Below are positions 2,441-9,485 of a stretch of 64,000 nucleotides of DNA, piece after piece. The notes under the pieces are model-generated. The model did not search any database and had not been told where the DNA came from. It saw only the letters and a list, made by a program, of their open reading frames with translations. Position 1 is the first letter of the stretch; every line of letters begins with the position of its first letter. The translations under genes were made by a program, and so were the position numbers. Origin of the DNA: Salipiger thiooxidans (GTDB lineage: Bacteria > Pseudomonadota > Alphaproteobacteria > Rhodobacterales > Rhodobacteraceae); contig NZ_FNAV01000011.1 in assembly GCF_900102075.1 (NCBI RefSeq), positions 1 to 64,000 of the forward strand, written 5' to 3'.

Positions 2441-2466
2441 GGAACCTTTTTCCGAGACCCGGCGTT
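2441..2466 (+). promoter_or_regulatory. EcfG-type general stress promoter
   Basis: GGAAC at 2441-2445, a 17-nt spacer and CGTT at 2463-2466 match the alphaproteobacterial EcfG consensus exactly. It points at the small membrane gene at 2619. Transcription would begin near 2473 and leave a leader of about 145 nt. The leader contains GC-rich inverted repeats, for example GGGCA...TGCCC near 2490. Confidence 0.8.
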
Positions 2467-2904: not shown

Positions 2905-3069
2905 ATGCTGTACTGGGCTCTTCTGTTCTTCGTCGTCGCCGTTGTGGCCGCCGTCTTCGGCTTCGGGGGCATTGCCTCGGCATCCGCAGGCATCGCGCAG
3001 GTGCTGTTCTTCATCTTCCTGGTGCTCTTCGTGGTCACCCTGATCATGCGTCTCGTACGCAAGGCCTGA
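2905..3069 (+). CDS. DUF1328 small membrane protein
   Basis: A 54-residue protein with two membrane helices ([20 protein letters not shown] and a second from about residue 28), and [15 protein letters not shown] between them. This is the pattern of DUF1328 (YtjA-like) proteins. AAGGAGGAAATCGTC precedes ATG at an ideal distance. Its function is unknown; family members are often stress-induced. It lies 97 bases after the previous membrane gene and may share its stress promoter by read-through. A bidirectional terminator follows. Confidence 0.92.
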
Positions 3070-3209: not shown

Positions 3210-4010
3210 TCAGGCCTTCAGTGTCTCGGTGGACGAGAAGAACATCGCCTGGCTGACCGCCGAGCGGACCTGATCCTCGGAGTAGGGCTTGGAGATCAGG
3301 AAGGCCGGTTCCGGACGCTCGCCGGTGAGCAGGCGCTCGGGGAAGGCGGTGATGAAGATGACCGGGCGGTTGCCCAGCGACTTCAGGATATCGTTCACCG
3401 CGTCGATGCCCGACGAGTTGTCGGCGAGCTGGATGTCCGCGAGCACGAGATCGGGGGTTTCCTTGCCGGCGAGGTCGACCGCGGCGCTGCGGGTACGGGC
3501 AACGCCGGTGACCCGGTGCCCGAGATCGGCGACGATGCTCTCGAGGTCCATGGCGATGATCGCCTCGTCCTCGATGATGAGCACGCGACCGGACACCGCA
3601 TCCGCCATTTCCTGACGGGCGAGGGTCACCAGTTGCTGTGCCTCGGAGCGGTCGATCTGCATGATCTCGGCGACCTCGTCGAGCGAGAACTCCTCGATGG
3701 TGTGCAGCAGCAGGGCCTCGCGGCTGTTGGCGGTCAGCTTGGCCAGTCGGTCCTGCGCCTTGGCAAGTGCACCGCTGGTCTCGTCGGCCATGGGGGCGCC
3801 GGTGGTGGCCCAGATGCCGTGGAAGACCCGGAACATTCCGACCTTCGGCGAGCTGGCCATTTCGGCGCTGCTGCGGTCGGCAAGGATCGCTTCGAGTGTG
3901 GCGGCGGCGTAGTTGTCGCCTGTCGTCTGACTTCCGGTCAGCGCACGCGCGTAACGGCGCAGGTAGGGAAGCGCTGCTCCGATGGCCTGACTCAGGTCAC
4001 CCTTTGTCAT
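3210..4010 (-). CDS. phyR: General stress response anti-anti-sigma regulator PhyR
   Basis: Response regulator of 266 residues. The N-terminal half resembles an ECF sigma factor (sigma2-like, then sigma4-like with SREALLLHTIEEFSLDEVAEIM) and the C-terminal half is a receiver domain. The receiver shows IEDEAIIAMDLE, the phosphoacceptor stretch DLVLADIQLAD near residue 191, and the conserved lysine in LISKPY. In the known pathway, phosphorylated PhyR binds NepR and frees EcfG. The start is ATG at 4010 after GGACGATC; the longer open frame upstream has no ribosome site. An EcfG-type promoter reading into it lies at 4071-4047, consistent with autoregulation. It is divergent from nepR-ecfG. Confidence 0.96.
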   Translation of the reverse strand: MTKGDLSQAIGAALPYLRRYARALTGSQTTGDNYAAATLEAILADRSSAEMASSPKVGMFRVFHGIWATTGAPMADETSGALAKAQDRLAKLTANSREALLLHTIEEFSLDEVAEIMQIDRSEAQQLVTLARQEMADAVSGRVLIIEDEAIIAMDLESIVADLGHRVTGVARTRSAAVDLAGKETPDLVLADIQLADNSSGIDAVNDILKSLGNRPVIFITAFPERLLTGERPEPAFLISKPYSEDQVRSAVSQAMFFSSTETLKA

Positions 4011-4039
4011 ATCGATCGTCCTTTTTTCGATTTTTTTCG

Positions 4040-4071
4040 GGAACCAAACGCTGCATCGCTGCATTGGTTCC
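4040..4071. promoter_or_regulatory. Divergent, nearly symmetrical EcfG promoter pair
   Basis: On the minus strand GGAAC (4071-4067), a 16-nt spacer and CGTT (4050-4047) match the EcfG consensus and read into phyR. On the plus strand GGAAC (4040-4044), a 17-nt spacer and CATT (4062-4065), one base off consensus, read toward nepR. The two overlap almost completely as an imperfect palindrome. Confidence 0.8.
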
Positions 4072-4124
4072 GGCATGAGTGGAAAATAATGCACGGGCGC
4101 GGCAGTTAAAAGAGCAAGGACAAC

Positions 4125-4289
4125 ATGGGTCATACGCGGAGAAAAGACAAAGAGACCGAGGTCATCGACGAGAACCTGCGGCGGGTGTATCAGGACATGC
4201 TGGACGAAAAAGTGCCGGACCGTTTCCTTGATCTCATCGCGCAGTTGCGCTCTCAGGAAGAACCGTCTTCCGGCGGGGAGGCCCAATGA
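4125..4289 (+). CDS. nepR: Anti-sigma factor NepR
   Basis: A 54-residue protein with the NepR core: IDENLRRVYQDMLDEKVPDRFLDLIAQL matches the two-helix sigma-binding segment (quoted in pieces: IDENLRRVYQDML, then VPDRFLDLI). NepR sequesters EcfG until PhyR-P competes for it. Its stop codon overlaps the ecfG start (ATGA), which is the usual coupling of this pair. It is preceded by AGCAAGGACAAC. Confidence 0.95.
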   Translation: MGHTRRKDKETEVIDENLRRVYQDMLDEKVPDRFLDLIAQLRSQEEPSSGGEAQ

Positions 4290-4840
4290 GCGGCGATCCA
4301 CGCGACGAACTCGTCGATCACCTCCCGGCGCTGCGCGCCTTTGCGTTGTCGTTGACGCGCAACGGCGCGGTCGCCGATGACATGGTTCAGGACACGCTGG
4401 TCAAGGCGTGGTCAAAGATCTCGACCTTCGAGGCCGGGACCAACATGCGGGCATGGCTCTTCACCATACTGCGCAACACCTATTATTCGAACCGCAGGAA
4501 GGCGGGGCGCGAGGTGTCCGATTCCGAGGGCATCTTCACCGAAAGCCTCTCCGAGAAGCCGGCCCACGACGGTCGGCTTCAGCTCGCGGATTTCCGGCGT
4601 GCCTTCGTCAAGCTCACCGACGAACAGCGCGAGGCGCTGATCCTTGTCGGCGCGCAGGGCTTCTCCTATGAAGATGCCGCAGAGACATGCGGTGTGGCCG
4701 TGGGCACGATCAAAAGCCGGGTCAACCGGGCGCGTGCAAGGCTGACCGAGCTCCTGAACCTCGATGAACACGAGGGTCTGGAGATGACGGACCAGGCCAC
4801 GATGGCGGTGGTGACCGGAGCACGTCCGGCGGCGCGCTGA
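4286..4840 (+). CDS. ecfG: General stress sigma factor EcfG
   Basis: ECF (ECF15-type) sigma factor of 184 residues. The sigma2 region (about residues 10-80) contains DMVQDTLVKAWSKISTFEAG followed by MRAWLFTILRNTYY. The sigma4 region (about 110-160) contains LTDEQREALILVGAQGFSYE and GVAVGTIKSRVNRAR. It directs RNA polymerase to GGAAC-N16/17-CGTT promoters, three of which I see in the first 10 kb here. It is translationally coupled to nepR and 52 bases upstream of the sensor kinase. The tail after residue 160 is long and not conserved. Confidence 0.96.
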   Translation: MSGDPRDELVDHLPALRAFALSLTRNGAVADDMVQDTLVKAWSKISTFEAGTNMRAWLFTILRNTYYSNRRKAGREVSDSEGIFTESLSEKPAHDGRLQLADFRRAFVKLTDEQREALILVGAQGFSYEDAAETCGVAVGTIKSRVNRARARLTELLNLDEHEGLEMTDQATMAVVTGARPAAR

Positions 4841-4892
4841 TTGCGCGACGCCGGGAGCGGCCGGGAAACAGGACGGAAGCGAGCGGGGAATA

Positions 4893-6680
4893 ATGAACGA
4901 CAAGGCCGGCCTGCGACTGCGGCCCATGGGGCTTGCGGCGCGAATGATCCTGTTCCTGACGCTGGCGCTCGTTCCGATCGGCGTGGTGGCCTACTTCCAG
5001 ACCGCCAAACTGCAGCAGGAGACCCGGCTGCGCTCGCAGCTGTCTCTCGTGGCCCTCACCGAGGCCGCGGCACTCGGAGAACGTGAAACCATTCTGCGCG
5101 CCCAGGGTGGCGCGCAGGCCCTCGGCGCGACCGTCGGTCAGGAGCTCGTCGTGCGCGCGGACCCGGAGATCTGCTCGGCGCGGCTCGCCTCCTATCTCGC
5201 GGCCTCGCCTGGCTATTCCTTTGCGACCTTCGTGACGGCCGATGGCCGGATGCCCTGTTCCTCGGCGGGGAGCGAGCTCGACATCGCGAATTTCCCGCGC
5301 GTCCAATCGCTGGTCGAACACCCGGGCGCCGCCGCGTGGCTGAACCCCAACGGGCCGCTGAGCCACCGCTCGGTGATCGTGGTGGCCGAGCCCTTCTTCC
5401 TTGGCGGCGAACTTGCCGGCCACGTGCTGCTTTCGGTGCCTTCGGCACTTCTGCCACGCACCCAGGGACCGGGCGACGGCCAGAAGGCGGCACCCTTCCA
5501 GGACATCGTGACGATCAACGAGCATGGCGAGATCCTGTCCTCGCGCGGGGGGCTCGACTCGGTCGACGGCATGCTGCCGGCGGACCTCGATCTCGCAAGC
5601 CTCGTGGGCGCGCGCTCGCAGAGCTTTGCCGCGCGCAGCAAGGACGGGGAAACCCGTGTCTACGCCGCGGCCCCGCTGGTGCCGGGCATGGTGCATGCGC
5701 TCGGGATCTGGAGCCACGACAACGTCGAGGCGCAGGGTCTGACGGTGAGCGGCGTCGCAAAGGCGCTGCCGCTCCTGATGTGGGCCGCGTCGGTGATCGT
5801 GGCCTTCCTCGCGGTGAACCGTCTGGTGATCCGCCACATCAAGCGCCTGTCCCGCCGGATGCGCAGCTTTGCCCGCACCCGCCGCATTCCCGACCACCAC
5901 ACCGACCTTGCGGTCCCGGCCGAGGTGGCGGAGATGGAGAATGACTTCCTCGACATGGCCGACGCCATCCTGCGCGATGAGGCGCAGCAGGAGAACGCGC
6001 TGCGCGAGAAGACCATCCTGCTGAAAGAAGTCCACCACCGGGTTAAGAACAACCTCCAGCTCATCTCCTCGATCATGAACATGCAGATCCGGCAGGCCAG
6101 CGAGGCCGAGACCCGGCTGGTGCTGCACCGTCTGCAGGACCGGATCCGCAGCCTCGCCACTATCCATCGCAACCTCTACCAGACCGAGGATCTCGGCCAC
6201 GTCAATTCCGGCGTCCTGCTCGAGGAGCTGGTGGCGCAGATGACCCAGATGACCGAGGTCAACGACCGTCCCGTCCGGGTGCGGACCGAGCTTGCCCATG
6301 TCGAGGCGGTGCCCGACCAGGCGGTGCCGCTGTCGTTGCTGACCGCCGAGGCGCTGACCAACGCGATGAAATACGCCTCGCCTGCCGCAGGCCAGAACCA
6401 GGCGGATGTCTCGGTGCGCTTCGAGCACGAGGGCGACGGGCGCGCCGTGCTCGAAATCAGCAACAGCGACGCCACGCCCGAGACCGTCGATCCGGCGATC
6501 CGGATCGAGCCCAAGGGCCTCGGTTCGCGCTTGATCCAGGCCTTCGCGACCCAGCTCGGCGGCGACCTGATCCAGGGCCGCGAGGGCGATCGCTACCGCG
6601 TCCAGGTGGCGTTCTCGCTCAAGGATTTCGAGCCGGACGAAACCCTGCCAACCAAGGTGCCGGATGTCCCAGACTTCTGA
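4893..6680 (+). CDS. Membrane HisKA_2-type sensor histidine kinase of the stress locus
   Basis: A 595-residue kinase. Membrane helices lie at about residues 17-37 and 287-310 and bracket a periplasmic sensor domain of about 250 residues. This is followed by a HAMP-like linker (RHIKRLSRRMRSFARTRRIP). The phosphoacceptor motif LKEVHHRVKNNLQLISS sits near residue 379, typical of HisKA_2/HWE kinases. The ATPase domain shows SLLTAEALTNAMKYA and KGLGSRLIQAFA. Its position directly after nepR-ecfG suggests it phosphorylates PhyR. The final 17 bases overlap the amidoligase gene, which implies co-translation. The signal is unknown. Confidence 0.93.
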   Translation: MNDKAGLRLRPMGLAARMILFLTLALVPIGVVAYFQTAKLQQETRLRSQLSLVALTEAAALGERETILRAQGGAQALGATVGQELVVRADPEICSARLASYLAASPGYSFATFVTADGRMPCSSAGSELDIANFPRVQSLVEHPGAAAWLNPNGPLSHRSVIVVAEPFFLGGELAGHVLLSVPSALLPRTQGPGDGQKAAPFQDIVTINEHGEILSSRGGLDSVDGMLPADLDLASLVGARSQSFAARSKDGETRVYAAAPLVPGMVHALGIWSHDNVEAQGLTVSGVAKALPLLMWAASVIVAFLAVNRLVIRHIKRLSRRMRSFARTRRIPDHHTDLAVPAEVAEMENDFLDMADAILRDEAQQENALREKTILLKEVHHRVKNNLQLISSIMNMQIRQASEAETRLVLHRLQDRIRSLATIHRNLYQTEDLGHVNSGVLLEELVAQMTQMTEVNDRPVRVRTELAHVEAVPDQAVPLSLLTAEALTNAMKYASPAAGQNQADVSVRFEHEGDGRAVLEISNSDATPETVDPAIRIEPKGLGSRLIQAFATQLGGDLIQGREGDRYRVQVAFSLKDFEPDETLPTKVPDVPDF

Positions 6681-7632
6681 TCTCCCCGATGCGGCCCCGC
6701 TGCCGCGTCCGCTGACCTCCCGCGGCACGCCGCGTCACGTAGGTGTGGAGATCGAATTCTCGGGGATCACCGAGGAACGGGCGGCGCGGCTGCTGGCGCG
6801 CGACCTGAACGGCGCGGCGAGCGAGGACGAGCCCGGCCACTGGGTGGTGAGCGGCAGCGATCTCGGCGATTTCGAGTGCTACCTCGACAGCCGCCCCTTG
6901 CAGAAGCTCGACCGCGACGGCTTTGGCGCGCAGCTCCGTGAGCTGGCGCGCAGCGTCGTCCCCGTGGAGGTGGTGAGCGACCCCATCGAGGTCGGCCAGA
7001 TCGAGGCGCTCGACAAGGCGCTGGTGTCGCTGGGGAACGCGGGTGCCACCGGCACCTCGAGCGGGGTGCTGCTGGGCTTCGGCACGCATTTCAATCCCGA
7101 GGCGGTGTCGCTCGACTTTGCCGACGTCGCGCCGGTACTGACCGCCTACGCGCTGATCGAGGATCACCTGCGCCGCATCGCGGGCATCGACCTGGCGCGG
7201 CGGCTGCTGCCCTGGGTCGATCCCTATCCGCGCGCGCTGGTCGACCGGCTGGCAGCGCCGGACGCGCCCGCCGACATGCGCAACCTCATCAACACCTATC
7301 TCGAGCACGCGCCCTCGCGGAACCACGGGCTCGACATGCTCTGCATCTTCGCCGAAATCGACCATTCCCGCGTCGCGCGGGTGATGGACATGGAACAGAT
7401 CTCGGCCCGGCCGACCTATCACCTGCGGCTGCCCGACTGCCGCATCGACGAGCCCGGCTGGTCGCTCGCGAAGGAATGGAACCGCTGGGTGCTGGTCGAG
7501 CGGGTCTCGGAGAACCCGGCGCTGATGGCGCGGCTGAAGGCGGCGTGGCGGGACCATCGCGCCTCGCTCACCACGTTGCGGTCCGACTGGGCGGGGCGGG
7601 TGAAGCACATCCTGCAGGAGGCGGGGCTTTGA
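6664..7632 (+). CDS. Putative amidoligase (Amidoligase_2 family)
   Basis: A 322-residue protein. The N-terminal motif HVGVEIEFSGI matches the G-V-E-x-E-F signature of the Amidoligase_2 family, distant relatives of glutamine synthetase and glutamate-cysteine ligase. Such enzymes are predicted to form amide or peptide bonds using ATP. Further family-like features are VLLGFGTHFNPEA and RNHGLDMLCIFAEID. The gene starts inside the kinase gene and its stop overlaps the TTG start of a glutamine amidotransferase, so the two enzymes are made together. Family knowledge predicts a cooperating ligase and hydrolase/amidotransferase pair; the substrate is unknown. The link to the stress response is inferred from the operon. 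Confidence 0.82.
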   Translation: MSQTSDLPDAAPLPRPLTSRGTPRHVGVEIEFSGITEERAARLLARDLNGAASEDEPGHWVVSGSDLGDFECYLDSRPLQKLDRDGFGAQLRELARSVVPVEVVSDPIEVGQIEALDKALVSLGNAGATGTSSGVLLGFGTHFNPEAVSLDFADVAPVLTAYALIEDHLRRIAGIDLARRLLPWVDPYPRALVDRLAAPDAPADMRNLINTYLEHAPSRNHGLDMLCIFAEIDHSRVARVMDMEQISARPTYHLRLPDCRIDEPGWSLAKEWNRWVLVERVSENPALMARLKAAWRDHRASLTTLRSDWAGRVKHILQEAGL

Positions 7633-8363
7633 GGCCGGTCATTGGCGTCACCGTCTCGCGCCGCTCGGGCTGGCGGGTGTTTCCGCTGATGGCGCTGGCG
7701 GTCTGGCTCGCCGGTGGGCGGGCTTTGCGCTGGCAGACCGGATACCGGAGGGTCGATCTCGACAAGGTGGACGGCGTGGTGATCGGTGGCGGCGACGACA
7801 TCGCGCCCACGCTCTACGGCGGCGAGCTGCGGCTTGGGGTGCGGCTCGACCCGGCACGGGACACGATGGAATCGGACGTGCTGCGCGGCGCCTTCGAGCG
7901 GCGGCTGCCGATCCTCGGGATCTGCCGGGGCTCGCAGATGCTGAACGTGGTCCTGGGTGGCACGCTGCACCAGGACGCCTACGAGGTCTACGACTCGCGC
8001 CATATCCGCACCATCCTGCCGCGCAAGCGGGTCGAGATCGGCGAGGACACGCTGCTGTCGCGTTCGGCGCGGGCAAACTGTCTCTATGTGAATGCGCTGC
8101 ACAGCCAGTCGGTAAATGTGCTGGGAGAGGGGCTCCGGGTGGCTGCGCGCGACGACGGCGGCATGGTGCAGGCCATCGAGCGTGTCACCGATCCCTTCGC
8201 GCTGGGGGTGCAGTGGCATCCAGAGCATCTGATCTACCGGCGTGCCCATCGCCGGCTGTTCCGCTCGCTGGTCGCCGCGGCCAAGGCGGGCAGGGTCAGC
8301 ACGCCGCAGCTGGTTGCGGCCGAAGCCGAGGCGGAGGCGCAGCAGGAACCGCTCTGGAGCTGA
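7629..8363 (+). CDS. Class-I glutamine amidotransferase-like hydrolase (peptidase C26)
   Basis: A 244-residue protein starting at TTG 7629, which overlaps the amidoligase stop as TTGA. It shows GVVIGGGDDIAPTLYGG, the nucleophile elbow GICRGSQMLN, and the catalytic His-Glu in GVQWHPEHLIY, as in PuuD-like gamma-glutamyl hydrolases of the C26 family. Either it releases ammonia from glutamine for the preceding amidoligase or it hydrolyses a gamma-glutamyl product. Tight coupling favours joint action. The last 25 residues are Ala/Glu-rich and look like a non-conserved tail. Alternative upstream starts would lie deep in the amidoligase gene and lack a ribosome site. Confidence 0.88.
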   Translation: MRPVIGVTVSRRSGWRVFPLMALAVWLAGGRALRWQTGYRRVDLDKVDGVVIGGGDDIAPTLYGGELRLGVRLDPARDTMESDVLRGAFERRLPILGICRGSQMLNVVLGGTLHQDAYEVYDSRHIRTILPRKRVEIGEDTLLSRSARANCLYVNALHSQSVNVLGEGLRVAARDDGGMVQAIERVTDPFALGVQWHPEHLIYRRAHRRLFRSLVAAAKAGRVSTPQLVAAEAEAEAQQEPLWS

Positions 8364-8382
8364 CGCCCCCGCCGGGTCTTCC

Positions 8383-9066
8383 CTAGGCGGGCAGCGCGTC
8401 CGGGTGCGGGGCGGTCTCGAACTCCGCCGCCGTCACGTCGAGCACGATATGTCCGCCCTTGGCCACCGGGGCGCGGTGCGCCAGCGCCGAGACGGGCAGG
8501 GCTCGCTGCTCGTGGCCGAAGAACTTGCCGTTGTCGACGATGAAATAGGCCAGCCGGTTCTCGACCGGATCGGCGAGGATGTCCGACAGCGTGCCGAGCT
8601 CGGCGTCGCGTGCGAAGACCTCGCGTCCCAGCCAGCGGGTCAGGCGGGTGTAGCGGTCGAGCGCCTCTTCGGCGCGCGGATCGGGGGGCATGTCGGCCTC
8701 GTCCTCTCCGCCTTCGCTGGCGAAGGCCGCCATGGCGAGCGGCGCGTGGGTGGCTCCGAAGGGCCCCACGACGAGCGGCGGCAGCGCGGTGAGAAGGGCC
8801 GAGAGCTCGTCGGCGTCGCCGCCCCAGCTCGGCGCGGTCTCGAGTTCTTCCGGCGTGATCCGCAGCTCGACCTCGCGCGCATGCGGGTCCGTCTTCCCGA
8901 GCCGCGACGCCGAGGCCAGCACCTGACGCCCGGAGACCCCGCCCGGGCGCAGCGAAAGATAGGTCATCTGCCGATTGTCGGGATCGAAGAGGATGTCGGA
9001 GAGGGCCGCGGTCTTGTCGGCGGTGCGCACCCGCCAGCTGAGCATGTCGGAAAGGCTTTGGAGCAT
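8383..9066 (-). CDS. Two-repeat PRC-barrel protein
   Basis: A 227-residue protein with two PRC-barrel-like repeats. The first runs from about residue 16 (VRTADKTAALSDILFDPDN) and the second from about residue 138 (ARDAELGTLSDILADPVEN followed by RLAYFIVDNGKFFG). PRC-barrels occur in membrane-bound and RNA-processing proteins and in roseobacter stress genes. GGAGGTTCTCC precedes ATG. It is divergent from the 34-residue peptide gene, and a GGAAC box in the shared spacer also points this way but with a poor -10 match (AGTT), so EcfG control is only possible. The end converges on the amidotransferase gene. Confidence 0.85.
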   Translation of the reverse strand: MLQSLSDMLSWRVRTADKTAALSDILFDPDNRQMTYLSLRPGGVSGRQVLASASRLGKTDPHAREVELRITPEELETAPSWGGDADELSALLTALPPLVVGPFGATHAPLAMAAFASEGGEDEADMPPDPRAEEALDRYTRLTRWLGREVFARDAELGTLSDILADPVENRLAYFIVDNGKFFGHEQRALPVSALAHRAPVAKGGHIVLDVTAAEFETAPHPDALPA

Positions 9067-9124
9067 GGAGAACCTCCGGAGGATGTGTGGCATTTGAGCA
9101 ATAAACTGCCGAGCTCTCGGGAAT

Positions 9125-9155
9125 GTTCCGGAACCCGTACCTGATCATACCCGTT
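9125..9155. promoter_or_regulatory. EcfG-type promoter for the 34-residue peptide gene, with a weak divergent half
   Basis: Plus strand: GGAAC (9130-9134), a 17-nt spacer and CGTT (9152-9155), a perfect consensus, ending 30 bases before the peptide start. Minus strand: GGAAC (9129-9125) with a spacer of 17 to AGTT, one base off, toward the PRC-barrel gene. The two -35 boxes abut as GTTCCGGAAC. Confidence 0.8.
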
Positions 9156-9184
9156 TAGATCGTGAACATCGACAGGAGGCCGCC

Positions 9185-9289
9185 ATGCCCAGTGATATCT
9201 TCATCGCAGGATTGGCCGCACTCACGGTCGTCGCAGTCCTTATCTTCGCGCTCACCAGCGCCAAGGATCGTGACAGTGACTCACGTTAG
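9185..9289 (+). CDS. 34-residue single-helix membrane peptide
   Basis: Encodes MPSDIFIAGLAALTVVAV followed by a hydrophobic stretch and a charged tail ending KDRDSDSR. One membrane helix covers about residues 5-24. AGGAGG sits six bases before ATG and a perfect EcfG promoter lies 30 bases upstream, so the leader would be only about 20 nt. These signals make it a credible gene despite its size. Its function is unknown, but the promoter places it in the general stress regulon. Confidence 0.8.
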   Translation: MPSDIFIAGLAALTVVAVLIFALTSAKDRDSDSR

Positions 9290-9485
9290 GCCGGGCGGAC
9301 AATACTGACGCGCAAAAGCCGCAAGGCGGGGTTGGCGGGATAACCGCCGGCCCCGACCCCCTATTCAGGGCACGACTCCGGCCAGCCATGTCGATTTCCT
9401 GCCTGCATCTTCCGCATCTCCGGGCCTGCCACCGCTTGCTCGGGGAAAATTCTGCCGTTCTTAAAGGCGACTGAATTTGTCAGGT

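Follow-up and report, generated by a model that had tools for sequence, protein, structure and literature searches.

The first 64,000 nucleotides of contig NZ_FNAV01000011.1 of Salipiger thiooxidans (the window, by which we mean this whole stretch) carry a general stress locus, consisting of phyR, nepR, ecfG and a histidine kinase gene, that runs into genes for two predicted metabolic enzymes, an Amidoligase_2 protein and a Peptidase C26 protein. What ties such a pair of enzymes to a stress response? An earlier note on this DNA had taken the kinase, amidoligase and C26 genes as a coupled triplet and had proposed a stress-linked metabolite or a cell-wall modification step. Our analysis suggests that the stronger tie of the pair is to the EcfG regulon rather than to the kinase, and the best reading of the pair is a stress-induced system that makes and releases a gamma-glutamyl amide. 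We give this whole explanation, stress operon and gamma-glutamyl chemistry together, a probability of about 0.62.

Conservation of the pair and of its contacts

The overlaps described in the note, 17 nt between kinase and amidoligase (6664-6680, the amidoligase beginning at an ATG) and 4 nt between amidoligase and C26 (TTGA, with C26 beginning at the TTG at 7629), are present in the sequence. Pfam and NCBIfam profiles confirm that the kinase adjoins genes for NepR and an EcfG-type sigma factor, with a divergent PhyR (Table 1). The genes nepR and ecfG also overlap, by 4 nt, and 52 nt separate the end of ecfG from the kinase start. The core of a general stress response, PhyR, NepR and EcfG with a GGAAC-type promoter, is therefore present. 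The best match of the kinase is the PhyK equivalog NF051872, at 200 bits, below the cut-off of 750; on this score it is a PhyK-like protein outside that equivalog. The window amidoligase is the only PF12224 match in the 5.87-Mb source genome.

Profile searches with PF12224 were made in overlapping samples of genomes from the family, the order and the class, with the window's own genome included in the counts, and matches were found in 40 of 248, 47 of 292 and 20 of 289 genomes, respectively. From these, 92 neighbourhoods were fetched: 38 of the 39 non-own family-sample matches (G220, a contig-edge fragment, was left out), 35 new order-sample matches and 19 class-sample matches. Together with the window they yielded 90 parsed loci, 73 from the family and 17 from other families; L039, L073 and L087 had no amidoligase open reading frame. 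A later set of named loci added 61, after 78 of 80 had been parsed (not L166 and L193) and 17 duplicates, defined by identical residues 30-200, had been removed. The combined 151 loci were used for the amidoligase tree and for kinase contact; near-identical rows (L062/L159 and L175/L199) were kept, and all counts are of loci, not events. Genes were called with a home-made codon-score caller that has an ATG bonus and a minimum of 45 codons, and starts are the caller's choice. The tree was built by a quick method, with 48 of its 148 inner branches open.

A C26 gene adjoins the amidoligase (a gap of up to 400 nt) in 64 of the 73 family loci and in 16 of the 17 loci of other families, the sole exception among the latter being L086 (the genome-wide C26 search was made for family loci). 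Of the 124 family loci with C26, named loci included, 101 have an NTGA overlap after which the C26 frame stays open beyond 200 codons (90 ATGA, 7 GTGA and 4 TTGA); of 16 loci of other families, 7 have it. Since homologues share this overlap, the TTG start of the window C26 is supported.

The kinase contact is rarer. A kinase overlaps the amidoligase or ends within 100 nt upstream of it in 17 of the 151 loci: the window and all three congeners fetched (L040, L088 and L089), in which the 17-nt overlap is kept, six Roseivivax loci, Puniceibacterium L130, L046 (a duplicate of Thalassococcus halodurans L128) and five loci scattered elsewhere (L038, L048, L055, L147 and L167). The triplet that the note suggested seeking in relatives does recur, in congeners, Roseivivax and others; it is real but local, and the amidoligase-C26 pair is wider. 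Kinase-amidoligase contact as a conserved unit was therefore rejected. We also rejected a third gene for an intermediate step, as no cluster is found next to the pair in the majority of loci. On the tree, the clade of the window comprises 13 rows with a support of 88, and all are kinase-coupled except L129. This locus lies on a complete chromosome recorded as Planctomycetes bacterium Poly30; its amidoligase (8001-8924) is 48% identical and overlaps C26 by 4 nt, which suggests a likely transfer between phyla.

Linkage to ecfG takes several forms. Of the 73 family loci, 25 have an ecfG gene no more than 7 kb from the amidoligase, and none of the 17 loci of other families does; in 21 of the 61 later named loci it is in the fetched flank (up to 8 kb). 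The arrangements vary: the genes may share an operon, be separated by a PLD-family gene (PF13091) between kinase and amidoligase, or be divergent or convergent. This linkage (48 rows of 151) requires at least 15 changes on the amidoligase tree. Among the genes that recur near the pair are those for DUF1328, ferritin-like (Dps-type), CsbD, PLD and DUF7218 proteins. The proposed cell-wall modification found no support, with no cell-wall gene among those recurrent neighbours that were Pfam-scanned, most neighbour clusters being unscanned.

Candidate EcfG-type promoters upstream of the amidoligase

We searched for a strict EcfG-type motif, GGAAC-N16/17-[CG]GTT, in the parsed loci. It occurs within 120 nt of 18 of 27 phyR and 14 of 25 nepR genes and, at phyR, mostly starts about 60 nt upstream. 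At the amidoligase it starts between -36 and -30 in 19 of 90 loci (18 of 73 in the family and 1 of 17 elsewhere), compared with 7 of 1530 other genes in the same loci (Fisher 9.9e-20; shuffle mean 0.007), and at least 4 of those 7 control genes are stress-type cluster genes or nepR. Similarly, the later named set has an amidoligase-proximal motif in 8 of 61 loci, against 2 of 1282 control genes drawn from all 78 parsed named loci. This brings the total with an EcfG-type motif directly upstream of the amidoligase to 27 of 151. A matrix trained without the amidoligase promoters passed 20 of the 73 family loci and L086, at a cut-off exceeded by 1% of controls. In some further loci the strict motif sits at a different distance from the amidoligase, such as -53, -50 or -91. 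On the tree, the motif at the close position (27 rows) cannot be explained by fewer than 19 changes, nor any strict motif (41 rows) by fewer than 23. Furthermore, the motif is present in L045, L053, L056, L061, L065, L090, L095, L136 and L142, which have no ecfG in the fetched flank. The note's link between the pair and stress thus holds for EcfG, and the kinase is replaced as the wider partner by the EcfG regulon (27 of 151 loci with the motif, as against 17 of 151 with the kinase).

The position of this motif is nearly fixed. In the 27 strict cases the gap from the -10 element to the ATG is 8 nt in 22, 9 nt in three, 7 nt in one and 11 nt in one, and all 27 amidoligases start with ATG. Transcription starts about 6-8 nt past a -10 element, and with an 8-nt gap the mRNA would therefore begin at the ATG. 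A ribosome-site-like word was found in 1 of the 27 motif loci versus 54 of the 124 loci without a motif there (Fisher 3.6e-5). Based on these results, the amidoligase mRNA in the motif loci may be leaderless. The motif agrees with GGAAC-N17-20-GTT as given in a passage of a Sphingomonas melonis transcriptome study, which also lists two EcfG-dependent genes whose motifs end in CATT, for topoisomerase IB and a small secreted protein (PMC6599016). Leaderless mRNAs do occur in a related bacterium, Bradyrhizobium, with 320 start sites 0-10 nt upstream of start codons; the motif given for these sites is an extended -10 box and not of EcfG type (PMC4842269).

L109, L113 and L119, the last two belonging to Thioclava by their named duplicates, have GGAAC-N17-CATT starting 57-63 nt upstream of the amidoligase.

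In the window itself, the divergent phyR and nepR genes have overlapping candidate promoters (Table 1), and by eye the plan on the nepR side is the same in the three fetched congeners; we infer that the nepR-side promoter is active. The pair would then lie in an autoregulated five-gene operon. The 17 kinase-coupled loci divide by spacing. In 11 of them kinase and amidoligase overlap or lie at most 11 nt apart, and no strict motif is present within 150 nt; in the other 6 the two genes are separated by 46-82 nt, and three of these loci have the motif (L038, L048 and L147). In the window's genus, operon capture appears to stand in place of an EcfG promoter of the pair's own. The note had counted separate promoters, with no shared induction, against its proposal. 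Some relatives do have promoters of their own at the amidoligase; as these are EcfG-type promoters too, joint induction is still expected. A search for sigma-70 promoters inside 3900-9300 found none, with 0.4 expected.

Table 1. Genes and candidate promoters of the stress locus in the window
Feature	Position	Strand	Basis or remark
phyR, anti-anti-sigma response regulator	3210..4010	-	Pfam PF22029, PF22233, Response_reg
Probable EcfG-type promoter of the nepR operon, GGAAC-N17-CATT	4040..4065	+	overlaps the phyR promoter
EcfG-type promoter of phyR, strict GGAAC-N16-CGTT	4047..4071	-	starts 61 nt upstream of the phyR start
nepR, anti-sigma factor	4125..4289	+	PF18557, E 3.9e-16
ecfG, general stress sigma factor	4286..4840	+	NCBIfam NF009198, 318.9 bits (cut-off 270)
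Histidine kinase, HWE/HisKA_2	4893..6680	+	Pfam HisKA_2/HWE_HK
Amidoligase_2 enzyme	6664..7632	+	PF12224, E 1.1e-49, 170 bits (cut-off 22)
Peptidase C26, predicted PuuD-like gamma-glutamyl hydrolase	7629..8363	+	PF07722, E 2.2e-44, 152 bits (cut-off 20.5)
PRC-barrel protein, convergent to the pair	8383..9093	-	Pfam; homologues downstream of C26 in several relatives

Further motifs and small genes flank these features. Homologues of the PRC-barrel gene have an EcfG-type motif within 120 nt in 4 of 10 cases. Beyond that gene, a 34-aa membrane microprotein (9185-9289, +) resembles by eye cluster c18, which is present in seven fetched loci; GGAAC-N17-CGTT at 9130-9155 (+) lies 29 nt upstream of it, and the microprotein is perhaps a further EcfG target. 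On the other side of the locus, an EcfG-type motif at 2441-2466 (+) lies about 150 nt upstream of a small membrane protein of cluster c5 (2619-2807, +), which is followed by a DUF1328 gene (2905-3069, +). Both of these clusters recur near the pair in relatives.

Predicted enzyme chemistry and a change of partner

A structure model of the amidoligase had a mean pLDDT of 93, and a sequence search found no solved structure for this protein. In a Foldseek search the model weakly matched YbdK at rank 1, a predicted glutathione synthase at rank 2, glutamine synthetase at ranks 3 and 7 and Dop at rank 5, and the enzyme probably has the glutamine-synthetase-superfamily fold. The residues invariant in 34 sequences include E29, E31, E102, H142, N144, R249, H253 and R255, which, by analogy with the glutamine synthetase superfamily, we take to be catalytic. 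For C26 the nearest solved chain is PuuD. The ICRG and VQWHPE regions, which presumably carry the catalytic Cys, His and Glu, align with PuuD and two other chains. Against the PuuD equivalog NF008471 the protein scored 101 bits, with a cut-off of 266; by this measure it is related to PuuD and is not PuuD.

The loci that lack an adjacent C26 proved informative. In L060, L068, L105 and L108, which form one clade, a gamma-glutamylcyclotransferase (GGACT)-type gene ends 3-23 positions upstream of the amidoligase, and the best C26 match in these genomes is just 32-33% identical. The two of these four genes that were scanned, and a homologue in L111, all match PF06094; in L111 the GGACT-type gene and a C26 gene are present together. 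In L043, L096 and L098 a closer C26 (49-51%) lies elsewhere in the genome, with one in-frame stop each in the distant matches of L096 and L098, and a C26 search of the L122 genome found no close C26. In L100 (genome G449) the C26, 58% identical, lies about 6.5 kb beyond the amidoligase, and the two genes flank a block of stress genes that includes phyR, a kinase and two nepR-like genes. Hydrolase and cyclotransferase alike break gamma-glutamyl bonds, and this shared action tells most about the likely product. The kinship with PuuD and the replacement by GGACT also make gamma-glutamyl release by C26 more likely than ammonia supply.

A model for the pair and its alternatives

From what was read in the sequence, namely the layout, the overlaps, the protein families, the EcfG-type motifs of relatives and the partner swap, we propose the following model. 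The nepR, ecfG, kinase, amidoligase and C26 genes would form one autoregulated general stress operon, read as a single transcript. Upon stress, PhyR would be phosphorylated and remove NepR, and the freed EcfG would then transcribe its own operon, such that amidoligase and C26 are induced simultaneously, in amounts kept matched by the stop/start overlaps. In some relatives the EcfG promoter would be sited so that transcription begins at the amidoligase ATG, giving a leaderless mRNA. The amidoligase is predicted to use ATP to couple an acceptor amine to glutamate, or to a glutamyl peptide, through the gamma-carboxyl, and C26 to hydrolyse the gamma-glutamyl bond so formed. A gamma-glutamyl conjugate would thus be made and released in stress and might serve, for instance, as a capped or stored form of a reactive amine. 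PuuA and PuuD act comparably in putrescine breakdown, by gamma-glutamylation and release.

Several observations weigh against this model. In 64 of the 90 loci no strict motif lies within 120 nt of the amidoligase, and in the other families both the motif at the close position (1 of 17) and nearby ecfG (0 of 17) are rare or absent; many loci lack such a promoter and operon capture alike. No EcfG motif lies within 150 nt upstream of the amidoligase in the window or in its three congeners, although L040 has one at -158, and the nepR-side motif on which the operon would depend reads CATT instead of CGTT. The chance rate of that form is appreciable: GGAAC-N17-CRTT occurs three times in the window, where 0.61 would be expected, and 3 of 100 shuffles gave at least as many. 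GGAAC-N16-SGTT has 95 matches in the whole genome versus 53 for the reversed control, such that the motif alone is unspecific. Cluster c2, presumably rlmN, lies directly upstream of the pair in 16 of the 18 loci that have it (c2-type loci include L035, L051, L059, L095 and L109). The best Foldseek match was weak (E 6.7e-3, TM 0.31), no match reached an E-value of 0.001, and HMG-CoA reductases, which presumably have a different fold from the glutamine synthetase group, took ranks 4 and 6. Finally, the exchange of C26 for GGACT is a single event.

Of the alternatives, the one that we consider least likely, and have rejected, is hitch-hiking, in which the pair merely happens to lie downstream of a stress locus, so that transcription running on from ecfG is without functional meaning. 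The confinement of kinase contact to a few clades would fit it, as would the 48 of 73 family loci without ecfG within 7 kb, a count that also weighs against our model. Decisive for us was that relatives with no ecfG nearby (L045, L053, L056 and others) have their own EcfG-type promoter at a fixed distance from the amidoligase, and the ecfG linkage itself takes several arrangements. A different role for C26, as a true glutamine amidotransferase giving ammonia to the amidoligase for a primary amide product, seems unlikely: a Class I GATase domain was also matched and the stop/start overlap is common, yet the nearest solved relatives are PuuD-type hydrolases, and in four loci C26 is replaced by a gamma-glutamylcyclotransferase, which is unable to give ammonia.

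We think it quite unlikely that the amidoligase modifies a protein or peptide, in the manner of Dop/PafA or a tag, which C26 would then strip. Dop is among the best fold matches, but YbdK and glutamine synthetase outrank it. A small-protein cluster, c23, lies downstream of C26 on the same strand in six loci (L102, L106, L110, L115, L116 and L121), but none of the small-protein clusters is found downstream of the pair in a majority of the 90 loci, in calls that miss genes below 45 codons. According to a passage on phage UFV-P2, an Amidoligase_2 gene there lies near ATP-grasp, GATase and AIG2 genes (PMC3890496), which would also suit such a role. We therefore retain the stress-induced gamma-glutamyl make-and-release system. 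A bolder form of it, which we offer as speculation and would not bet on, posits an undescribed gamma-glutamyl amide stress metabolite whose synthesis EcfG switches on through leaderless mRNAs that can be translated when stress impairs ordinary initiation; the window's lineage would have exchanged this promoter for direct translational coupling to the kinase, fixing the ratio of sensor to product and possibly allowing the product to feed back on the kinase.

The enzyme families and their pairing are known. Amidoligase_2 is reportedly paired with a GAT/C26 partner in proteobacteria and with an AIG2 partner in firmicutes (as Iyer et al. 2009 are said to have described). The pairs here are of the same families and pairing, and the AIG2 alternative occurs here too; they differ in the EcfG link, the leaderless-type EcfG promoter and a swap inside one bacterial family. 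Like PuuA/PuuD, the window pair joins a probable glutamine-synthetase-superfamily ligase to a predicted C26 hydrolase that aligns best with PuuD, but the ligase is of another family and the operon has no oxidase or dehydrogenase gene. To our knowledge, the Amidoligase_2-C26 pair has so far been a prediction without a condition or a substrate. The core genes, the divergent phyR promoter and the motif are those of the alphaproteobacterial PhyR-NepR-EcfG response, whereas the window operon is extended by two metabolic enzymes. In Rhodobacter sphaeroides RSP_1271-1274, phyR likewise lies on the strand opposite the sigma factor and sensor kinase, with the kinase ATG overlapping the sigma factor stop; the passage describing these genes mentions no amidoligase, unlike the window (PMC5830050). 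Among the titles and abstract openings listed by our searches of open-licence PMC papers, none reports an EcfG link, a leaderless-type EcfG promoter or the partner swap. New here are the tie to EcfG regulation, an EcfG promoter that is probably leaderless and, in the window's lineage, operon capture in its place.

The predicted placement in the EcfG regulon of this family indicates when the pair is likely to be made and where to look, marine Roseivivax and Palleronia among the candidates, and the exchange of C26 for GGACT limits the likely chemistry to gamma-glutamyl bonds. With its fixed distance from promoter to ATG, the amidoligase also provides an uncomplicated setting in which a stress sigma factor may give rise to leaderless mRNA. 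Together, the EcfG wiring of the pair points to a stress-made molecule that can be sought.

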